Positions 2,147 through 13,878 of a stretch of 64,000 nucleotides of DNA are shown here, one piece after another. The position numbers were made by a program, and so were the translations under genes. A model generated the notes under the pieces. It did no database searches. It was given only the letters and a program-made list of their open reading frames with translations, and was not told the DNA's origin. Source of the stretch: Prochlorococcus sp. AG-402-I20. GTDB lineage: Bacteria; Cyanobacteriota; Cyanobacteriia; PCC-6307; Cyanobiaceae. Within the stretch, counting starts at the first letter, position 1. The number at the start of each line of letters is the position of its first letter. The stretch lies in NCBI GenBank assembly GCA_003216975.1, contig QCHY01000003.1, positions 1 through 64,000 on the forward strand, in the 5' to 3' direction.

Positions 2147-3013
2147 TTAGTCAGTGATGGATATCCGCGGGAATGATTTGGTTAATGAGTCTAGCTGCTT
2201 TAATTGATCTATGAGATCCTCCAAATATCGTAATGGCAATGCACATGGTCCGTCGCAGAGAGCTTGACTTGGATTAGGATGTGTCTCTAAGAAAAGACCT
2301 GATATTCCCATAGAGATTGCTGCTCTAGCTAGTCCAATCAACTGAGAACGTCTACCTCCAGAGGTCGCAGCACCTGCATCTCTACATTGCAATGAGTGAC
2401 TGACATCGAAAATTATTGGTACATCATCACATTGATTCTTCATTACTTCAATGCCAAGCATATCAACCACTAAATTGTCATAACCAAAGGATGTTCCTCT
2501 CTCACAAATTAATAGCTTATTGTTGCCGAACTCAATAAATTTATTTAATACATGCACCATTTGAGACGGGCTTAAAAATTGGGATTTTTTAATATTAATT
2601 ATACATTGCGTAGAAGCAATAGACTTAATCAGATCAGTTTGACGTGCTAAAAAAGCTGGTAATTGAATTACATCACAAACATTAGATACAATTTTGGCTT
2701 GTTCAGAAGTATGGACATCAGTAACTATTGGAATTTGTAATGTTCTTTTTATTTCATCAAGAATCTCTAGACCTATTTCAATTCCTGGACCTCGAAATGA
2801 ATCCAATGTAGATCTATTAGCTTTATCAAAAGATGCCTTAAATACTAGTGGAACATTCAATCTATGACATACTTCTTTAAAGTGTGCAGACGTTTCTAAT
2901 GCTAATGCTCTAGATTCAATAACATTTAAACCTCCAATGAGAATAAAAGGTTTACTGTTAGAAATTACAAAATTAGATAATCTTATTTCATTCGAAACCT
3001 TTAACATATTCAT
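2147..3013 (-). CDS. kdsA: 3-deoxy-8-phosphooctulonate (KDO-8-P) synthase
   Basis: This enzyme condenses arabinose-5-phosphate with phosphoenolpyruvate to give KDO-8-phosphate in the cytoplasm. The 288-residue length is normal. Family motifs are clear: GGLNVIES (27-34), KASFDKANRS then FRGPG (about 59-75), TDVHT, CERGTSFGYDNLVVDM and FDVSHSLQ. Asn30 occupies the position that is Cys in metal-dependent enzymes and Asn in the E. coli enzyme, so this is predicted to be the metal-independent class. It is the last gene of the minus-strand KDO set and is separated from kdsC by 145 nt, so it may have its own promoter. Identity is firm; what the KDO is used for is not shown here. Confidence 0.95.
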   Translation of the reverse strand: MNMLKVSNEIRLSNFVISNSKPFILIGGLNVIESRALALETSAHFKEVCHRLNVPLVFKASFDKANRSTLDSFRGPGIEIGLEILDEIKRTLQIPIVTDVHTSEQAKIVSNVCDVIQLPAFLARQTDLIKSIASTQCIINIKKSQFLSPSQMVHVLNKFIEFGNNKLLICERGTSFGYDNLVVDMLGIEVMKNQCDDVPIIFDVSHSLQCRDAGAATSGGRRSQLIGLARAAISMGISGLFLETHPNPSQALCDGPCALPLRYLEDLIDQLKQLDSLTKSFPRISITD

Positions 3014-3158
3014 TCAGCATTTATAACAAGTTAGCACAAACTTCAAAAAAAACTTGAATAAAAGAATCTTAAAATCGTTATTAACATATAGTTTCAATTC
3101 TCACTTCGATACATAATTCTAGTGAATAAGAAAACAAAGCTTTTAATAAAATTAAAAT

Positions 3159-3698
3159 TTACGCTAATATTCTTTCCGACATTTCCCTTGCGACACCCAT
3201 TCCGCCATTACTTTTCAAAAGTAAATCAGCATAAGATATAAATTCCGGCGAGGAATCTCTAGGACCTATAAGAAGAGATACAATATCCTTGACAACAATA
3301 TCATTAATATCATCACCTATAAATGCTGTGTTAATCGGACTAATTTGTAACTGATTCTGCAATTTTGTTAATGCATTCTTTTTATTTTGAATACTAGTTA
3401 AACAATAGTTTACATCAAGAGATTTTGCTCGTAAAAGAGTACTTTTCCCCTCACCACCACTAATAAAAGCTATGATTATATTTTCTTGTTGTAATTTTTT
3501 AATCCCAATTCCATCTCTAACATTAAATTCTCTAGTTATTTCACCATCACTATTAATAAAAATATTTCCTCTTGTAAGAACTCCATCAACATCAAAAACT
3601 AATAACTTAATTTTTTTTAGTTTTCTTTTATTTAAAAACCATTTTATTTCCATAGTCAATTCAGATAGTTTAAATAAGTAGCTAACAATTCTATTCAT
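3159..3698 (-). CDS. kdsC: KDO-8-phosphate phosphatase (HAD family)
   Basis: This gene removes the phosphate from KDO-8-phosphate. The 179-residue protein is a compact HAD hydrolase without a large cap: the DxD motif lies in FDVDGVLT (Asp36 and Asp38) and motif IV is GDDIND near residue 128. These sequences and the length match KdsC. The ATG at 3698 overlaps the kdsD stop codon (ATGA), and a strong GGAGG ribosome binding site (3705-3709) lies inside the end of kdsD, so the two are probably translationally coupled and this start is preferred. Met16 is a less likely alternative. A generic HAD phosphatase is possible on motif alone, but the neighbours kdsA, kdsD and kdsB make the assignment strong. 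Confidence 0.92.
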   Translation of the reverse strand: MNRIVSYLFKLSELTMEIKWFLNKRKLKKIKLLVFDVDGVLTRGNIFINSDGEITREFNVRDGIGIKKLQQENIIIAFISGGEGKSTLLRAKSLDVNYCLTSIQNKKNALTKLQNQLQISPINTAFIGDDINDIVVKDIVSLLIGPRDSSPEFISYADLLLKSNGGMGVAREMSERILA

Positions 3699-4696
3699 TT
3701 AAATCCTCCATTGACAAGATCATGTAAAAGTAAATAACCAATAATCTCATTAAAGTTATTCCGCTTTTGGACTACGGGTAATGATGTAATAGCTTGATTC
3801 TTATCATTGATCTCCATCAACTTTAAGGCATCAATAGCAAGCATATCTTTATGAGTTGTTATTGGGTCATTAGTCATTAAATCAGAGGCTTTTAAAGAAT
3901 ACCAATCACTAGAATTATTATTATCTAGAGCCCTGCGAAGATCACCATCAGTTATGACTCCTAAAAGGTGATTATCGTAAATATTATTAACAACATATCC
4001 ACAACCTGCCGCATTTTTAGTTATCAGGTCCACTAGTTCTTTCAAGGAGCTATCTGGGGTCAATAAATTAAATTGTGAGCTTGGTATCATAAAGTTTCCA
4101 ACAGTAAGATTCAGTCTCTTTCCAAGTTCTCCCAAAGGATGATTTAAAGCAAAATCTTGATGTGATATCCCTCTTAACTCCATCCATACAGCTGTTAAAG
4201 CGTCTCCAATCGCTAGAGCTACAGTAGTACTTGCCGTGGGGGCAAGGTTTAAAGGACACACTTCTCTATCGACGGTGGAAAGTAAGAAACAGTGGCTAGA
4301 TTTGGCAAGTGAAGACTTTGGGTCACCAATAATAGAGATCAAAGTAATTTCTCTTTTCTTGAAATGCGGGACGAGAGTCAATAATTCTTGAGTTTCCCCA
4401 CTGTTAGAAATCAAAATACAGATATCACCTTTAGAAACAACCCCGATATCACCATGAAGTGCATCAATTGGATTCAAATAGATGGACATCAACCCTACAG
4501 AGGAAAATGTTGAAGCTATTTTTCGAGCCACTATGCCACTTTTTCCGACACCAGTTAAAATTAATTTGCCATTATTTAATGCACAACTTTGTATATAATT
4601 TAATGCTTTTTCAACCTGAAAGTAATCAATATTATTTGCACAATTCTTAATTGCTAAGGCTTCTATTTCAAGACATTTTTTAAAAGACTTATACAT
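3695..4696 (-). CDS. kdsD: Arabinose-5-phosphate isomerase (SIS plus two CBS domains)
   Basis: The product interconverts ribulose-5-phosphate and arabinose-5-phosphate, the first committed step to KDO. The 333-residue protein has an N-terminal SIS sugar-isomerase domain (about 30-170) with GVGKSGIVARK and NPIDALHGDIG, followed by a tandem CBS pair (about 205-330) with GVITDGDLRRAL. This is the full-length KdsD/KpsF/GutQ architecture. It overlaps kdsC by four bases and is preceded by kdsB with a 24-nt gap, so it belongs to the same transcript. KpsF-type paralogues serve capsule rather than LPS and cannot be told apart by sequence alone. Confidence 0.95.
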   Translation of the reverse strand: MYKSFKKCLEIEALAIKNCANNIDYFQVEKALNYIQSCALNNGKLILTGVGKSGIVARKIASTFSSVGLMSIYLNPIDALHGDIGVVSKGDICILISNSGETQELLTLVPHFKKREITLISIIGDPKSSLAKSSHCFLLSTVDREVCPLNLAPTASTTVALAIGDALTAVWMELRGISHQDFALNHPLGELGKRLNLTVGNFMIPSSQFNLLTPDSSLKELVDLITKNAAGCGYVVNNIYDNHLLGVITDGDLRRALDNNNSSDWYSLKASDLMTNDPITTHKDMLAIDALKLMEINDKNQAITSLPVVQKRNNFNEIIGYLLLHDLVNGGFK

Positions 4697-4720
4697 CTCA
4701 CTTAAAAATAGAAAATAATT

Positions 4721-5560
4721 TTAATGTTCTACATTATTAAAGTCAAGTTCCTTCTGTGATAATTTATAATTAATTGCTTGTAAATCATCAAAAGTATCAA
4801 TAGAATAATTATCTGATTTAACTAATTTCGTTTTAATCTGATAACCAGCTTCTAAAAATCTTAACTGCTCTAGAGACTCTAATTTATCTAATTTTGAAGA
4901 AGAAATTTTTGACCACTTCGCAAGAAGACTAGCCTTATAAGCATAGATTCCAATATGTCCATAAAAATTTGAGAAATTAGACCATTCCTTAGGATCTTTC
5001 CCGCTAATAAAAGGAATCGTTGATCTTGAAAAATAAAGTGCATTATTATCAGATCTAATTACTACTTTGACTTTATTATGATTATGAATTTCGTTAGCTT
5101 TCAATAAGTATATAGGCGTTAAAATATCAAATTCATCTCCCAAGATCATTGATTCTTGAGCAATTTCAGAAATAATTTTTGGATCAATAAATGGTTGATC
5201 TCCTTGAACATTTATAATCAAAGTTTTGTCTAGAACATTTTTAGGTATGTCGTGAATTAGTTTATATTTATTGTTATAAAACATATAAACTAATTCATGA
5301 ATAACTGAAGCAATCCTATCTGTCCCAGACGTACATGTTGATGGAGTTTGTATTACATTAATATTCCAAGATTGAGATAAATTACAAATCTTTTCAGAAT
5401 CAGTACAAAGAACAACTCCTGTGGCTTCTGGAACCAACTTGCAACGATCTATGACATTTTTCAAAAGTGGCTCTCCGCCAATATTAGCAAGGATTTTTTC
5501 AGGTAATCTTGAAGAGTTTAATCTCGCAGGTACTGCTATTAAACATGTCTCAAATGTCAT
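4721..5560 (-). CDS. kdsB: 3-deoxy-manno-octulosonate cytidylyltransferase (CMP-KDO synthetase)
   Basis: This enzyme activates KDO with CTP to CMP-KDO, the donor used by KDO transferases. The N-terminal nucleotide-binding motif ARLNSSRLPEKIL (about 11-23), VLCTDSEKI, INVQGDQPFIDP and the late RFLEAGYQIK segment are characteristic of KdsB. The length of 279 residues is somewhat longer than the roughly 250 of the E. coli enzyme; an extra stretch between the SGTDRI and NVQGDQP motifs accounts for much of it. It sits 16 nt downstream of the radical SAM gene and 24 nt upstream of kdsD. With kdsD, kdsC and kdsA it gives a complete four-step route. No KDO transferase is visible in this window. Confidence 0.95.
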   Translation of the reverse strand: MTFETCLIAVPARLNSSRLPEKILANIGGEPLLKNVIDRCKLVPEATGVVLCTDSEKICNLSQSWNINVIQTPSTCTSGTDRIASVIHELVYMFYNNKYKLIHDIPKNVLDKTLIINVQGDQPFIDPKIISEIAQESMILGDEFDILTPIYLLKANEIHNHNKVKVVIRSDNNALYFSRSTIPFISGKDPKEWSNFSNFYGHIGIYAYKASLLAKWSKISSSKLDKLESLEQLRFLEAGYQIKTKLVKSDNYSIDTFDDLQAINYKLSQKELDFNNVEH

Positions 5561-5576
5561 AGTTACTTATAAAGAT

Positions 5577-6434
5577 TTAAGTTAAATATTTATTCCAAGC
5601 TTGTTGATGAAACTTCCCAAAAATAAGTCCATCTGCATCACAGTTTACACATGGAAAACCTGCACATGAACGGCCCTGTGATAATTTTTTTCTATAAAGA
5701 TTCATTTTCTTTCCAAACCAAATATTTTTTATACTGTCAGAGAAAATATTTCCAAATTTTAACTTTTTATACCAATCTTGAACACATAGTAGTACATCTC
5801 CATTCCAGTCAATAGTCAATGAATAATGTGGATATGCGCAGGTCCTTTGGGGTTCATTCATAGCTTTATCATGACTCAATATACCAGCCCTATTAGTTAA
5901 TTTTATGCCATATCCTTCCTCTTCACTAAACCATCTATTTCTAATACTATATAATTTAGTTGTAACTTTTGCTTCTTTCATTAGTTTAGAAAACTTTGGT
6001 ATCTGATGCGGTCCATCATAAGCACTTATTACTAGTTGAGAAAGACCAGATTCATACAATTTAGTAACTAAATCTATTTTTAATAGATCTCCATTAGTGA
6101 CAATTTCAACATGTGAAGCCTTAGACAGATGATGTACAATCTCAGAGAGATTGGGATGAGCTAAGGGTTCACCATAACCACATATATTGATAATTCCATT
6201 AAAACCAATCTGAATTAAATCATCTGCAATCTTTTCAGATAAAGAAACACTCATATAGAGATGCTGATTAGGATAAATGCTTGGATCATACCTAGGGCAA
6301 AAAGTACACTTTCTATTGCAATACTCTCCAGTGTTTAAATCGATAAATGATGGAATTGGACCATCTTCAGAAAGAGTAATATTATCAATTAAAGGTCTTT
6401 TCCTATCTAAATTATCAAGTAACGTCTTTTCCAT
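5577..6434 (-). CDS. Radical SAM / SPASM-domain enzyme of unknown substrate
   Basis: The 285-residue protein has the radical SAM cluster motif CNRKCTFC (Cys39, Cys43, Cys46), a GYGEP motif of the SAM-binding fold, and a C-terminal SPASM-like region with CAYPHYSLTIDW, DVLLCVQDW and a CAGFPCVNC cluster, which would hold one or more auxiliary iron-sulfur clusters. SPASM enzymes modify peptides, but many relatives lie in polysaccharide clusters and their substrates are unknown. Here it is the first gene of the KDO transcript, 16 nt before kdsB, which suggests it acts on a sugar intermediate or a surface component. The substrate is inference only. The gene reads away from a 349-bp divergent intergenic region. 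Confidence 0.85.
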   Translation of the reverse strand: MEKTLLDNLDRKRPLIDNITLSEDGPIPSFIDLNTGEYCNRKCTFCPRYDPSIYPNQHLYMSVSLSEKIADDLIQIGFNGIINICGYGEPLAHPNLSEIVHHLSKASHVEIVTNGDLLKIDLVTKLYESGLSQLVISAYDGPHQIPKFSKLMKEAKVTTKLYSIRNRWFSEEEGYGIKLTNRAGILSHDKAMNEPQRTCAYPHYSLTIDWNGDVLLCVQDWYKKLKFGNIFSDSIKNIWFGKKMNLYRKKLSQGRSCAGFPCVNCDADGLIFGKFHQQAWNKYLT

Positions 6435-6783
6435 TTTTCGAATCAGCTCAAAATAGAAACATCAATTTTTTCGTCTTTTCATAAGAATGAAAAAGATGAC
6501 ACCCCTTAGAATTATCTAATAAATAGAATTTAATTTTAGCCTAGATTGCATTAATTGGAGGATTTTATCAACATACGTAACGTTGTACATATAAGAACTT
6601 GCTTGCTTACATAAGCACAAAATTTATTAAACACTGAATGCCATACAAGTTGTATAATTAGATTAATCCAAAAAATTTAATTCAGAATCAGTAAAACTCT
6701 TAAGAAAGATATATCTAGTCTTTAATTAAAAGACGATTTGAAAACAACTATTAATATGTATTTAGATCAAATAAAAAGTCAAA
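6435..6783. promoter_or_regulatory. 349-bp divergent intergenic region, candidate promoters
   Basis: This AT-rich gap separates the minus-strand KDO transcript from the plus-strand aminotransferase, so promoters for both directions must lie here. A TATAAT hexamer at 6653-6658 could be a -10 element for the plus-strand gene, but no convincing -35 is visible. A near-perfect inverted repeat at 6718-6734 (GTCTTT, 5-nt centre, AAAGAC) lies 50 nt before the aminotransferase start and could be an operator or a leader hairpin. A second imperfect hairpin, TTTTCAT-AAGA-ATGAAAA, lies at about 6475-6495. I found no ORF, RNA gene or riboswitch that I can support here. Confidence 0.4.
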
Positions 6784-7936: not shown

Positions 7937-8932
7937 CTAAGATATAATTTTTCTCAACTCAAATACTCTTGCTTGAAATGCATCTAAGAAAATAATCCTT
8001 TCATATGGCAATCTAGTAGAAATAAATCTAGTTGGTCTAAACATACTCATTCGAAAAATATCTTTTATTTTTCCTTCTAAATTTATCATTAACAATGCAT
8101 TACCTGTTCTTGTAGTTACCACAAAATTCTCATCATTCCACCAGCAAACATCATTGATATATCCATTATATTTCTCAAAACCATTTAAATTAAGTAAACA
8201 AGAAGGCAGCCTACGCTGCAATCTAAATAAACTTTGGGGTATTATTATTTCATTTAAGATTTGAACCGAAGGTACTAATTCATCACCATTTGCAGAAAAA
8301 TCTATTGATAATAGATATACTCGCCCTGGACGATTTGTCCAGCCTCTACTGGTCAAAAGTACTTTATTATTAAAAACTGGAGAAAATCTATATGGATAAA
8401 ATACTTCCAAAATCTGAATAATTCTACTACTTTCACCTTTTAATTGAACTAACTTGATAGTTGAATCTCGAAAACAACTTACCAAAAGATATTCATTGTT
8501 AATCCATAAACAATCATATGTACTAGAAGTATCTAAATCAATCTCCTTTACAATATTATCTTGATATAAAAAAGGATTGCCTTTTAAATTTCCTAAAAAT
8601 ATAGTTCCATTTGGTGATTTTTGAAAGGAAGTTGGGAAAAAATCATATATGGGTAATTGAATAATATCTATATCATTTTTCTTAGATATTATTATTGGAG
8701 GTGATGAATCCTGACATCCTATTAAAACATTTTCAGAATCTAAATAAATAGCAATATCAGGTTTAAGATTATCCAAGATTACTGTCTTAATCAAATTATA
8801 ATTTTCTAAGGAAAAAAAATGTACACAACTTTTTGAAGTTACTGGTAAACATATTTCCGAACCTTTATGTATGTCTGCGGAATAGATATTAGAACTATCT
8901 TCTAAATTAAATAATGAATTCAAAGACAGCAT
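7937..8932 (-). CDS. Beta-propeller-like protein of unknown function
   Basis: I do not recognise this 331-residue protein. It has no signal peptide or membrane segment. Short strand-rich modules recur at roughly 40-50 residues (for example ENVLIGCQD, GTIFLGNLKG, EYLLVSCFRD, KVLLTSRGW, NFVVTTRTG), as expected of a six- or seven-bladed beta-propeller. A cytoplasmic sugar-binding, lactonase-like or scaffold role is possible. It is the last gene of the minus-strand rfbC-DegT-rfbA-rfbB run, 45 nt after rfbB, so it is probably co-transcribed and may act on the same dTDP-sugar or its product. Function is not established. Confidence 0.65.
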   Translation of the reverse strand: MLSLNSLFNLEDSSNIYSADIHKGSEICLPVTSKSCVHFFSLENYNLIKTVILDNLKPDIAIYLDSENVLIGCQDSSPPIIISKKNDIDIIQLPIYDFFPTSFQKSPNGTIFLGNLKGNPFLYQDNIVKEIDLDTSSTYDCLWINNEYLLVSCFRDSTIKLVQLKGESSRIIQILEVFYPYRFSPVFNNKVLLTSRGWTNRPGRVYLLSIDFSANGDELVPSVQILNEIIIPQSLFRLQRRLPSCLLNLNGFEKYNGYINDVCWWNDENFVVTTRTGNALLMINLEGKIKDIFRMSMFRPTRFISTRLPYERIIFLDAFQARVFELRKIIS

Positions 8933-8977: not shown

Positions 8978-10048
8978 CTAAATATTTATAATATCTTTAG
9001 CAACTTTTTTACACCAATTTAGATTGTCTAAATACCACTTTATAGTTAGATCTAAGCCATCTTCAAGACTATATTTTGGAAACCAATTCAGTTCTTCTTT
9101 AATTTTCTTATTACTAATTGCATATCTTCTATCGTGGCCCAAACGATCTTTGACATATTCTTTAAATCGACAATGGGGTTTATTTAACTCATTATACTTA
9201 TCTAGTTTCGAGCACAGTAAATCAACAATCTCATTATTAGTTTTTTGCTGCTCTCCACCAATACAATATGTGCTTCCAATTTCTCCATGTAAAGCAACCA
9301 ATTCAAGAGCAGAAATATGATCCTCAACAAAAATCCAATCACGTATATTCTCACCATCTCCATAAATTTTAAAATTCTTTTTTAATGAAGAATTTAATAT
9401 TGATAGTGGTATAAATTTTTCAGGAAACTGCCAAGGCCCATAATTATTACTGCAATTTGTGATTATAGACGGAAAGCCATAAGTATGGTGAAATGAATTC
9501 ACTAGATGATCACTAGCAGCTTTACTTGCTGAATAAGGACTCCTTGGATCATAAGGGCTTGTCTCAGTAAATAGTCCTTGTTCTCCAAGTGATCCAAACA
9601 CCTCATCAGTACTTATATGAATGTATTTAAAAACATTTTTTCTCTCCCAAGATAAAGATTCCCAATGTGATTTCAAAGATTCCAATAAATTAAAAGTACC
9701 AATTACATTACTTTCAAGAAAAGTTCGAGGTCCATTGATAGATCTATCAACATGGCTTTCAGCAGCAAGATGAAAAACCAAGTCAGGGTCAATTTCAAAT
9801 ACAGCCTTTTTTATTTCTTCATAATTAATTAGATTAATCTGAAAAAATTTATATCTAGTAAGGTTGATTTTCTCATCATTTATTAACTGATTAATTCCTG
9901 TTAAGTCACTTGCATAGCCAAGTTTGTCTAAATTAAAAATATTAATATTAGTTGTTTTTAGCAACTTTCGTATTAAAGATCCACCAATAAAGCCTGCACC
10001 ACCAGTAACAAGAATATTCTTTATACCACTTTTATTATAAAAACTCAT
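8978..10048 (-). CDS. rfbB: dTDP-glucose 4,6-dehydratase
   Basis: This short-chain dehydrogenase converts dTDP-glucose to dTDP-4-keto-6-deoxyglucose, the branch point for many deoxysugars. The NAD-binding motif GGAGFIGG lies at about residues 16-23, followed by HLAAESHVDRS, STDEVFG and the catalytic YSASKAA tyrosine/lysine pair, and RNYGPWQ-type segment (NCSNNYGPWQFPEK). The length of 356 residues is usual for RmlB. It follows rfbA by 82 nt on the same strand. In the absence of rfbD, its product probably goes to the aminotransferase and C-methyltransferase encoded nearby instead of to rhamnose. Confidence 0.95.
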   Translation of the reverse strand: MSFYNKSGIKNILVTGGAGFIGGSLIRKLLKTTNINIFNLDKLGYASDLTGINQLINDEKINLTRYKFFQINLINYEEIKKAVFEIDPDLVFHLAAESHVDRSINGPRTFLESNVIGTFNLLESLKSHWESLSWERKNVFKYIHISTDEVFGSLGEQGLFTETSPYDPRSPYSASKAASDHLVNSFHHTYGFPSIITNCSNNYGPWQFPEKFIPLSILNSSLKKNFKIYGDGENIRDWIFVEDHISALELVALHGEIGSTYCIGGEQQKTNNEIVDLLCSKLDKYNELNKPHCRFKEYVKDRLGHDRRYAISNKKIKEELNWFPKYSLEDGLDLTIKWYLDNLNWCKKVAKDIINI

Positions 10049-10130
10049 ACATATAATGATGAGATTTTTTTATTCTAAACCATGTTGAAAACGAATCAAT
10101 AACAAAGTAATTTTCATAGAGAAAAAGCTA

Positions 10131-11039
10131 TTAAAAATTACTTTCTAAAAGTTCTAAAAGATATTTACCATATCCACTCTTCATAAGAGGAATAGACAGT
10201 TTAATTAGTTGGTCATTACTGATCCATTTATTTCTCCATGATATTTCTTCAGGACATCCTACTTTTAAACCTTGTCTTCCCTCTAAGGTCCGAATATAAG
10301 ACCCAGCCTCTAATAATGAATCAAAATTACCCGTATCAAACCATGCTAACCCTCTTCCCATTAACTCAACAAATAAACTTTTTTCCTCCAGATATAGTTT
10401 ATTCAAAGAAGTAATTTCTAACTCTCCACGTGAAGAGAAATCCAACTTACTAGCTTTCTCAATAACAGTATTATCATAAAAATATAAACCAGTAATTGCA
10501 TAATTACTACTTGGTCTATCAGGCTTCTCCTCAAGACTTGAAACTGATCCACTGGAATCAAATCCAACAACCCCATACTCTTTTGGATTTCGTACTGAAT
10601 AAGCAAAAATAGTACTCCCTTTGATTCGATTATTTGCAGAGCTTAAAAGAGTAAGTAAATCATTACCGTGAAATAAATTATCCCCAAGTGCTAAAGCAAG
10701 ATGACTATCACCTAAAAACTCTTTTCCCAAAAGAATAGCCTGCGCAATACCTTCTGGCTTATTTTGAATAAGGTAACTTAATTTAATTCCCCATTGATTT
10801 CCATCTCCCAATAATCTCTTAAATAATTCTTGATGTTCTTGCGTAGTAACAATAAGAACATCTCTAATTCCACAAAGCATTAATGTACTAAGTGGATAAT
10901 ATATCATTGGTTTATCATATACAGGCATTAATTGTTTACTTATTGCTGAAGTCAGTGGTTTGAGTCTATTTCCTAATCCCCCAGCGACAATGATAGCTTT
11001 TCTATCAATATTTGATACATTACTGATTTTTTTTTTCAT
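10131..11039 (-). CDS. rfbA: Glucose-1-phosphate thymidylyltransferase
   Basis: This enzyme couples dTTP and glucose-1-phosphate to dTDP-glucose, the first step of the dTDP-deoxysugar route. The 302-residue protein has the sugar nucleotidyltransferase signature GGLGNRLKPLT (about 20-30), KQLMPVYDKPMIYYPLS and ALGDNLFHG, all typical of RmlA; the usual GGSGTRL is varied here to GGLGNRL. Its ATG directly abuts the stop codon of the upstream DegT aminotransferase gene, so the two are almost certainly translated from one transcript. The identity is strong. Confidence 0.95.
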   Translation of the reverse strand: MKKKISNVSNIDRKAIIVAGGLGNRLKPLTSAISKQLMPVYDKPMIYYPLSTLMLCGIRDVLIVTTQEHQELFKRLLGDGNQWGIKLSYLIQNKPEGIAQAILLGKEFLGDSHLALALGDNLFHGNDLLTLLSSANNRIKGSTIFAYSVRNPKEYGVVGFDSSGSVSSLEEKPDRPSSNYAITGLYFYDNTVIEKASKLDFSSRGELEITSLNKLYLEEKSLFVELMGRGLAWFDTGNFDSLLEAGSYIRTLEGRQGLKVGCPEEISWRNKWISNDQLIKLSIPLMKSGYGKYLLELLESNF

Positions 11040-12158
11040 TTATCTATCTCTAAAATATTTTTTCACCCAATAAATTACATATTCAATATCTTGGTCGTTC
11101 ATAGCAGGATGACAAGGTAGACTTATTAACTTCTTCCACTCTATATCGCAAACTGGATATTCTCTATCATTCATTTTTCTAACAATATTGTATAAGTATA
11201 AAGGTTTAAAGTGAACACTTGTATGTATCTTTTTAGACGATAGATAATCAATTAAATTATCACGCGATTCGGCAGGAACTCTTGCACAATAATATTGACA
11301 AGTTTCGCTCCAAGCTGGAGGATCTATAACATCAGAAAGTTCCTTGTTATATATACTTTGTATCTTTCTTCTCAATTCTAAATGGGCAGGAAGTTTTTTC
11401 ATTTGTTCCAAACATAAAGCTGCCATTAAATCAATCATGTAACATTTATATCCCAAAATGTCTACTTCATAATCCCAAGAATATCCTGGCTTTCCTGTTA
11501 AATTATCTTCTTTGTTTACTCTTGAAAAAGTACTTGTAATTCCAAGCCAAGTCATAGAAACTAATCTTTCATATAAATCTTTATCATTAGTTGTAATCAT
11601 GCCGCCATCTCCGCAAGGCATTGTTTTGACCGCTTGAAAAGACCAAACCGCTATATCTCCTTTAGATCCAGCTCCAGGTGAATAACAACTATGTGCACAA
11701 TCTTCAAGAATAAATCCATCAAAAAATTGTCTAATTTCATCAATAGGGGCAGGTACGCCTGCATGATTAACAGCAATAATCGCTTTAGTATTAGGTCTGA
11801 GGTGTTTACGAACGTCATCAGGACATATATTTAAATCCTCTTTCCTTACATCGACGATATTAGAAGTACAATTATTCCACAAAGGCACAACAGCAGTTGT
11901 CATAAAGGAAATAGCAGGATTAATAATATCAACATCTTTTATTCCAAGTGCCTTGAAAACCAAATCTTGACCATGGGTAGCACTAGTTACAGCAACGGCA
12001 TATTTTGCGCCAACCATACGAGCAAATTCCTCTTCAAATTGAGCAACCTTTGGCCCTTTTCCCCACCACCCACTCTCAATTGTTTCCGCAATTGCTCTTA
12101 TTTCTTCTTCACCACCCAACGGTCTTAATACCGGCAATACGCTTTGTCTTATTTCCAT
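11040..12158 (-). CDS. DegT/DnrJ/EryC1/StrS-family sugar aminotransferase
   Basis: This 372-residue PLP enzyme belongs to the family that transaminates nucleotide-linked keto-sugars. The N-terminal GGWWGKG-like segment (SGWWGKGP, 29-36), TSATHG, the PLP-contacting Asp153 in LEDCAHS and Lys178 in SFQAVKTMPCGDGG mark the family. Its gene lies between rfbC (18-nt gap) and rfbA (no gap), so the likely substrate is a dTDP-4-keto- or 3-keto-6-deoxyhexose made by RfbB with or without RfbC. The attacked carbon cannot be told from sequence alone. It replaces the rfbD that would be expected in a rhamnose operon. Confidence 0.88.
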   Translation of the reverse strand: MEIRQSVLPVLRPLGGEEEIRAIAETIESGWWGKGPKVAQFEEEFARMVGAKYAVAVTSATHGQDLVFKALGIKDVDIINPAISFMTTAVVPLWNNCTSNIVDVRKEDLNICPDDVRKHLRPNTKAIIAVNHAGVPAPIDEIRQFFDGFILEDCAHSCYSPGAGSKGDIAVWSFQAVKTMPCGDGGMITTNDKDLYERLVSMTWLGITSTFSRVNKEDNLTGKPGYSWDYEVDILGYKCYMIDLMAALCLEQMKKLPAHLELRRKIQSIYNKELSDVIDPPAWSETCQYYCARVPAESRDNLIDYLSSKKIHTSVHFKPLYLYNIVRKMNDREYPVCDIEWKKLISLPCHPAMNDQDIEYVIYWVKKYFRDR

Positions 12159-12176
12159 CTAGAAAATTTATTATTT

Positions 12177-12707
12177 CTAAATTTTAGGGCATTCTTCGAA
12201 TTTTTTGGCTTGCTCAACATCTTTTTTGGAAAGGATTGGCAGCTGATCGAATGGCCAGTCAATACCAATAGTTGAATCATTCCAAAAAAGAACTTGTTCT
12301 GATGACTGATCATAATAATCAGTTACTTTGTAGTGAAAATCTGCCATATCTGACAATGTATAAAAACCATGAGCCATTCCTGGAGGTGCCCATAATTGTA
12401 ATTCTGGTCTATCTAACTTAATTCCAAACCAATTAGAGAAAGTTGAAGATTTTTCGCGCATGTCAACAATCACATCATAGACAGAACCAGAAATACACCT
12501 GATCAACTTTCCTTGACATGTTGGAGACACTTGATAATGCAAACCTCTTAAGACCCCTCGTTTTGATCTCGTATGATTATCTTGAACAAAATGTGGCAAA
12601 AGAAAGTCTTTTTCATTCCAACTTTCTATAAAAAACCCTCGGCCATCCTCATACTTGTCAACCTCAATTAAAAAGGCTCCATCTATCGAAGTTTTTTTAA
12701 CTTTCAA
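12177..12707 (-). CDS. rfbC: dTDP-4-dehydrorhamnose 3,5-epimerase family protein
   Basis: The 176-residue cupin protein epimerises dTDP-4-keto-6-deoxyglucose at C3 and/or C5. The family motifs are present: DGRGFFIESW (21-30), the catalytic histidine in RGLHYQ (His57), PPGMAHGF and a VTDYYDQ segment with the active-site tyrosine region near residue 130. Length is close to the usual 180 residues. It is the first gene of the minus-strand dTDP-sugar run. Some relatives only epimerise C3 or C5 or act as C-5 epimerases in amino-sugar pathways, so the final stereochemistry is uncertain. It diverges from the C-methyltransferase gene across an 82-bp gap. Confidence 0.92.
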   Translation of the reverse strand: MKVKKTSIDGAFLIEVDKYEDGRGFFIESWNEKDFLLPHFVQDNHTRSKRGVLRGLHYQVSPTCQGKLIRCISGSVYDVIVDMREKSSTFSNWFGIKLDRPELQLWAPPGMAHGFYTLSDMADFHYKVTDYYDQSSEQVLFWNDSTIGIDWPFDQLPILSKKDVEQAKKFEECPKI

Positions 12708-12789: not shown

Positions 12790-13878
12790 TTGGATAATAT
12801 TTACAAAAAATACATATATTGTCCTATATGCAAAAGACCAATGCAATTAAAGCAAAAGGTAAAAGGACCTTTGATTATTTATTCAAAAAACATAACTTTA
12901 AAAGAATTCAATATATATGCTTGCAAGAAGTGTGAACTAGCAATAAATAATGACTATGAAGAGATTGATTTTGCCAACATCAAATATAATAATAATAAGA
13001 ATTTAATAGTAAATTTCAATGACAAATTAATTGAAGAGCATATAGTTACATGCAGCAAAGAATATCTAAATGAAGATGTAAGACTTATTGAAATAGGATC
13101 TGGATCAAGAATCGGTTTACTATCTAATTTACAACAACGAATAGGTTGCCAAGGATTAGCAATTGATCCAACATATGATATTGATTTCACCAAAAATATT
13201 CATGAAAAAATTAAATACTATGGAAAAATTGAAGATATTCCCAAAACAAATTCACAAAATATTTTAATTGCGCGAAATATCATTGAGTACATGACTCCTG
13301 AAGATCTTTCAGATACTTTAGACCTAATCTTTAAAGAAGATGGTTTAATTTTCCTAGAAATTCAGCCTATCAGTAATAAAAACTGGGGAAGTATATTTAC
13401 ATTTTCTGAGTACAGAACATTTTATTCATTACGTGCTCTAGATAAATTAATTAATAATAAAGACAAACAAGTAAAATGGCTTTCATCTAGTCATATCTTC
13501 GGTGAGAAAAGAACTTTTTTATCAGGATTTATAAGTAATCAAAGGCAACAAAAAAATATAAATTACTACAATAGTATCAACGAACTTTGTGAAGAAATTA
13601 AAAATATTGAAGTTGATCGAAATATAGTTCTCTGGGGTTCAGGAGGAAGATCACTAATGTTTCTATATAATGAAGGAAGGAAAATAGTTAATACAATAAT
13701 AGATCCATCTGAAGAAAGGCAAGGTGTATATCTTCCAGATTTTGATTTAATTAAAAGTCCTTCTGCAATACAAGAAAAAGATAAAATTATTATCCTAAAC
13801 TCACGATATTTAGATTGGATACAAAAAAATGTTCCACAAAGCTGCTCTTTCTTCATACTAGCTTGTAATGATTCATAA
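12790..13878 (+). CDS. Three-part SAM-dependent sugar C-methyltransferase
   Basis: The 362-residue protein has the architecture of the TylC3/NovU type of sugar C-methyltransferases: an N-terminal zinc-binding part with two CxxC pairs (Cys11/Cys14 and Cys45/Cys48), a central class I methyltransferase fold with glycine-rich EIGSGSR (101-107), and a C-terminal Rossmann-like part with VLWGSGGRS (about 281-289). Members add a methyl group to a carbon of a dTDP-4-keto-deoxysugar. The gene diverges from rfbC, which fits that substrate. The start is TTG at 12790; no ATG in frame precedes the CPIC motif. The catalytic His/Glu pair cannot be placed by eye, so the exact reaction is inference. Confidence 0.75.
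   Translation: MDNIYKKYIYCPICKRPMQLKQKVKGPLIIYSKNITLKEFNIYACKKCELAINNDYEEIDFANIKYNNNKNLIVNFNDKLIEEHIVTCSKEYLNEDVRLIEIGSGSRIGLLSNLQQRIGCQGLAIDPTYDIDFTKNIHEKIKYYGKIEDIPKTNSQNILIARNIIEYMTPEDLSDTLDLIFKEDGLIFLEIQPISNKNWGSIFTFSEYRTFYSLRALDKLINNKDKQVKWLSSSHIFGEKRTFLSGFISNQRQQKNINYYNSINELCEEIKNIEVDRNIVLWGSGGRSLMFLYNEGRKIVNTIIDPSEERQGVYLPDFDLIKSPSAIQEKDKIIILNSRYLDWIQKNVPQSCSFFILACNDS

Follow-up and report, generated by a model that had tools for sequence, protein, structure and literature searches.

A radical SAM gene of Prochlorococcus sp. AG-402-I20 that heads a run of Kdo genes appears to encode a BtrN-type twitch enzyme which, together with an adjoining PLP aminotransferase, would replace one Kdo hydroxyl by an amino group, the resulting amino-Kdo then being activated by KdsB. 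We assign this reading a probability of about 0.6. The gene lies in a stretch of 64,000 nucleotides (contig QCHY01000003.1, positions 1 to 64,000), referred to below as the window. The relevant features are:

2147..3013, reverse strand: kdsA, Kdo-8-phosphate synthase (TIGR01362 and NF003543 above cut-off)
3159..3698, reverse strand: kdsC, Kdo-8-phosphate phosphatase (TIGR01670 above cut-off)
3695..4696, reverse strand: kdsD/kpsF, arabinose-5-phosphate isomerase type (TIGR00393 above cut-off)
4721..5560, reverse strand: kdsB, CMP-Kdo synthetase (NCBIfam NF003952 and TIGR00466 above cut-off)
5577..6434, reverse strand: radical SAM gene, product BtrN-like and of the twitch type, predicted to be a sugar-alcohol dehydrogenase
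6435..6783, no strand: intergenic spacer that separates the radical SAM gene from the divergent aminotransferase gene, no ORF of at least 100 aa
6784..7881, forward strand: HisC-like (class I/II) PLP aminotransferase (Pfam Aminotran_1_2 3.7e-30, HisC-type fold)

As can be seen, the radical SAM gene is located 16 nt upstream of kdsB, the distance given in the original prediction, and the run continues with 24 nt between kdsB and kdsD, a 4-nt overlap of kdsD and kdsC and 145 nt between kdsC and kdsA. The gene had also been placed at the head of a KDO transcript; it is the first gene of the kdsB-D-C-A run, while co-transcription is plausible, judging by the spacing only. The divergently oriented aminotransferase gene had been overlooked. 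Its product retains the invariant catalytic lysine, Lys214, and belongs to Aminotran_1_2, not to the DegT type. Promoter-like matches in the region between the two divergent genes (6435-6783) are no commoner than expected by chance. Further along the window, rml-type sugar genes are present at 8978-12707, and two frames of the sugar cluster, at 7937-8932 on the reverse strand (331 aa) and at 12790-13878 on the forward strand (362 aa), have no Pfam or NCBIfam match.

The radical SAM gene has an intact reading frame for 285 amino acids, with Pfam matches to Radical_SAM (7.7e-11, residues 34-148) and to the SPASM model (4.8e-13, residues 199-258). The CxxxCxxC motif predicted at residues 39-46 is confirmed as C39-x3-C43-x2-C46, and all three cysteines are invariant in an alignment of 31 sequences. 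The only C-terminal cysteines that are invariant among these relatives are C199, C217, C262 and C265, which brings the invariant cysteines to seven overall. These four align with the C-terminal cysteines of BtrN and are predicted to suffice for a single auxiliary cluster, which is also the number in BtrN. A full SPASM protein, with two auxiliary clusters and some seven C-terminal cysteines, was considered and rejected on this count, and the earlier SPASM label is therefore corrected to twitch (truncated SPASM). Residues N181 and R182 of an NRxG stretch are invariant or nearly so across the 31 relatives, and R182 is aligned with Arg152 of BtrN, which we take to be an active-site residue.

BtrN was the best PDB match both for the single sequence (phmmer, 3e-19) and for the 31-sequence profile (3e-44, the next structure following at 1e-7). 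The AlphaFold2 model (mean pLDDT 82, pTM 0.85, with residues 176-195, the NRxG stretch included, below pLDDT 50) also retrieved BtrN first in a Foldseek search (2e-16, TM 0.73-0.83 on BtrN length), and the second-best protein was SpeY, likewise a twitch radical SAM dehydrogenase. With the CxxxCxxC motif, the four auxiliary cysteines and BtrN nearest to it in both sequence and fold, the protein is, as far as sequence and modelled structure can tell, a BtrN-type twitch protein with one four-cysteine auxiliary cluster. It is predicted to remove two electrons from an alcohol and so to oxidise it to a carbonyl. At the threshold used, it is the sole match in its own genome (1.70 Mb, 92% complete, the window being contig C3).

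Loci related to the window come from Prochlorococcus genomes. Among 400 genomes of the family, the radical SAM enzyme was present at an identity of at least 70% in five, the window's own included, and in all five its gene is followed directly by kdsB on the same strand. Since two of the five (G173 and G196) are near-identical (95%), they amount to about four lineages. An aminotransferase adjoins the radical SAM gene in every case: it is HisC-like (class I/II) in the window and of class III in the other four, where it is found directly upstream of the radical SAM gene (two of the four enzymes were scanned and assigned to Aminotran_3, and the other two align with them). The window's genome holds three relatives of the class III enzyme, at 29-31% identity in frames of 425-441 aa elsewhere, none of which is close. 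The window's radical SAM protein is 70-72% identical to those of the other four genomes and groups with them in a tree with 100/100 support, whereas identity is just 32-48% for KdsB, KdsA, KdsC and KdsD. The radical SAM enzyme has thus changed little among genomes that differ in their kds genes and in the class of their aminotransferase.

KdsA was found in 164 of the 400 genomes, which makes the radical SAM enzyme an accessory to the kds genes, not part of their core. A congener (G233) carries the same kdsB-D-C-A run (KdsA 64%) with neither a radical SAM nor an aminotransferase gene in its kds cluster, and the pair is therefore best regarded as an add-on. The remoter cyanobacterial copies, at 31-36% identity, are not beside kdsB.

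Phage contigs from IMG/VR carry the radical SAM enzyme at 42-50% identity. In three marine phage contigs (L064, L067 and L070; 45-47% identity), KdsB is encoded immediately upstream of it, and the genes for a class III aminotransferase and for KdsA lie no more than 1.7 kb and 4.4 kb away, respectively. When the phage enzymes were clustered at 90%, all 14 close lineages (HMM score >230) had an aminotransferase gene within 1.7 kb, of class III in eight and HisC-like in six; among lineages scoring lower the link is looser. The reverse scans gave a similar picture. The class III query retrieved eight contigs, seven of them already known from the radical SAM search and the eighth (L116) with another radical SAM gene adjacent. 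With the HisC-like query at a score of at least 145, a radical SAM gene was nearby in 25 of 26 contigs, some of them near-identical and several with weak radical SAM matches (45-74 bits); in 24 it lies within 4 kb, the other being L130, where the frame is intact. The last of the 26 (L141) has a PhyH oxygenase gene instead. For more distant phage HisC-like aminotransferases, a radical SAM or PhyH gene was nearby in four of 37 contigs. A viral search with the window's aminotransferase as a single sequence gave no match, and the phage homologues were found by the alignment-based search. Since the HMMs were partly built from the same loci and contigs can be near-identical, these counts are evidence of linkage and should not be read as a formal probability.

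Several further genes were noted at these and related loci. A small methyltransferase with weak similarity to NodS (METHYLTRANSFERASE) recurs by the pair (L064:8905-9555, L070:8861-9511, L133:6458-7093 and L021:11558-12214), in phages and once in Prochlorococcus (G261); it may N-methylate the amine. In L067 a nearby gene encodes a GT29 sialyltransferase-type protein (2e-16), as would suit a product activated with CMP; the corresponding proteins of other contigs have no clear Pfam match. A second, divergent KdsB-like cytidylyltransferase is encoded in the same neighbourhoods at L018:1182-1913 and L020:15977-16714, the former above the NF003952 cut-off, and may activate another ulosonic acid. 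Distant BtrN-like proteins are encoded near genes of the nucleoside phosphorylase superfamily (PNP_UDP_1) at L022:9752-11441 and L023:9539-11894, whose products could remove 5'-deoxyadenosine; L022 also carries a NeuB gene. Campylobacter phages MW074125, OP654737, MK408758 and FN667789 encode radical SAM proteins of about 31% identity, two of which are annotated as "BtrN protein".

A different oxidising enzyme adjoins the aminotransferase in another genome, G278 (L111, G278:C16; 4737-6557 and 8914-11001). Its kds cluster includes a HisC-like aminotransferase 37% identical to that of the window, preceded by a gene for a PhyH-type oxygenase, and has no radical SAM match; the oxygenase looks like an alternative oxidation step. 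The cluster also encodes a short protein matching just part of KdsD. PhyH genes beside the aminotransferase were also seen in phage contigs L134 and L141. Swapped oxidising enzymes and swapped aminotransferases are what a module that oxidises and then aminates predicts. One may extend this, tentatively and at well below even odds, to a modular cassette common to marine cyanobacteria and phages. It would be composed of a BtrN-like radical SAM or a PhyH enzyme, an aminotransferase of class I/II or class III and, in many cases, a NodS-like methyltransferase, and would provide cell surfaces with (N-methyl-)amino-Kdo in place of Kdo. If so, phage receptors would perhaps be altered.

The original prediction suggested that the enzyme may make a modified octulosonic acid or attach another group and named co-occurrence with kdsB as a check, homologues without any link to kds genes or polysaccharide clusters being taken as evidence to the contrary. 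Linkage to kdsB holds for the five close orthologues and the three phage contigs; further out, in phages and other cyanobacteria, the BtrN-like family usually keeps the aminotransferase and is often found without kds genes, so that the counter-evidence named then is in part present. The proposal of a modified sugar gains support and can be narrowed to a predicted amino-Kdo, since an aminotransferase is always present where the linkage of the radical SAM gene to kdsB holds.

The wider family also bears on the strongest alternative, in which oxidation and amination by the pair concern some other sugar of a surface polysaccharide, and the kds genes are neighbours only because they serve that polysaccharide too. 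For most phage copies accompanied by a HisC-like aminotransferase, no kds gene lies in the vicinity, as such a role would have it, and the window itself holds the rml-type sugar genes noted above; such a phage pair can act on another substrate or else rely on host Kdo. Against this, the radical SAM gene and kdsB are directly adjacent in all five close genomes and the three phage contigs, in surroundings that otherwise differ, and the aminotransferase relative of G278 is likewise inside a kds cluster. We therefore consider this alternative unlikely. Less likely still, the enzyme would only oxidise, or epimerise, Kdo and the aminotransferase would be unrelated to it. The divergent orientation in the window means that the layout does not force co-transcription, and the neomycin C epimerase NeoN, which acts in aminoglycoside biosynthesis, is a radical SAM enzyme as well (PMC10991966). 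This improbable reading is at odds with the near-universal linkage of the two genes among close relatives in both search directions; moreover, an additional cysteine near residues 257-258 is not kept in the phage copies, and so is not the general hydrogen donor that an epimerase would need. A peptide-modifying SPASM maturase placed near kds genes by chance would account for the SPASM-type C-terminus and for weak NCBIfam maturase matches, far below cut-offs, but is highly improbable given the absence of the full SPASM cysteine set, top structural matches that are cyclitol and sugar dehydrogenases, and neighbours that are sugar genes.

In the amino-Kdo pathway that we favour, the substrate would probably be free Kdo, supplied by KdsD, KdsA and KdsC, as the gene linkage suggests. 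A 5'-deoxyadenosyl radical would abstract the carbon-bound hydrogen at a hydroxyl-bearing carbon, the auxiliary [4Fe-4S] cluster would accept the second electron to give a carbonyl, and the adjoining PLP aminotransferase would convert the carbonyl into an amine. We infer that both steps precede that of KdsB, which would activate the product, probably 8-amino-3,8-dideoxy-Kdo, with CTP. The position C8 is favoured because Kdo8N is a natural sugar made by a Kdo 8-oxidase followed by an aminotransferase, and because class III aminotransferases usually yield terminal amines. Our confidence in C8 itself falls a little short of even: BtrN oxidises its substrate at a secondary alcohol, which counts against this position. 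The HisC-like aminotransferase of the window might act on an internal ketone in preference to a terminal aldehyde. A comparison of KdsB residues revealed none marking amino-Kdo specificity that separated pair-linked from unlinked enzymes.

As for the destination of the sugar, the window has all the Kdo genes (2147-6434), but Kdo transferases of the WaaA (PF04413) and KpsC/S (PF05159) types were not found in its 92% complete genome (G000), and the marine Synechococcus LPS that has been analysed is reported to be without Kdo (PMC4515613). The sugar therefore probably enters another surface polymer. Among the papers searched, none joins radical SAM enzymes with kdsB and an aminotransferase, or with ulosonic acids and an aminotransferase. 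What is new here is an enzyme of a known, BtrN-like kind, with aminotransferases, in a pathway for which that literature reports no radical SAM step. If correct, the prediction would mean that two unrelated enzymatic routes lead to amino-octulosonic acids and that a radical SAM enzyme takes part in Kdo metabolism, the first such case as far as the literature searched shows; kds genes in picocyanobacteria would also gain a concrete role. To judge by the phage copies, this surface-sugar chemistry is carried by viruses as well.

Among characterised enzymes, the closest is BtrN, the 2-deoxy-scyllo-inosamine dehydrogenase of butirosin biosynthesis (PDB 4M7S/4M7T), with which the window's protein has in common the twitch fold, the CxxxCxxC motif, four auxiliary cysteines and the NRxG arginine. 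The BtrN pathway also uses an aminotransferase, BtrS, which belongs to another class. BtrN differs in its cyclitol substrate and antibiotic pathway, and identity in the structural alignment is 22-25%. SpeY (PDB 7WZV), of the spectinomycin pathway, is a radical SAM dehydrogenase too, with 17-18% identity and a TM-score below that of BtrN. The predicted logic, in which Kdo is oxidised, transaminated and then passed to KdsB, is shared with KdnB and KdnA of Shewanella, KdnA being a DegT-type sugar aminotransferase that acts after KdnB. Kdo8N occurs in Shewanella, and the first step is catalysed by the Kdo 8-oxidase KdnB, an iron-containing alcohol dehydrogenase (PMC5125639). The window's protein is a radical SAM enzyme, not a KdnB-type (iron-containing type III) alcohol dehydrogenase, and the two Fe-ADH matches of the genome sit on other contigs. 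The KdnB and KdnA families match neither protein described here, and the window's pair would be their non-homologous counterpart.
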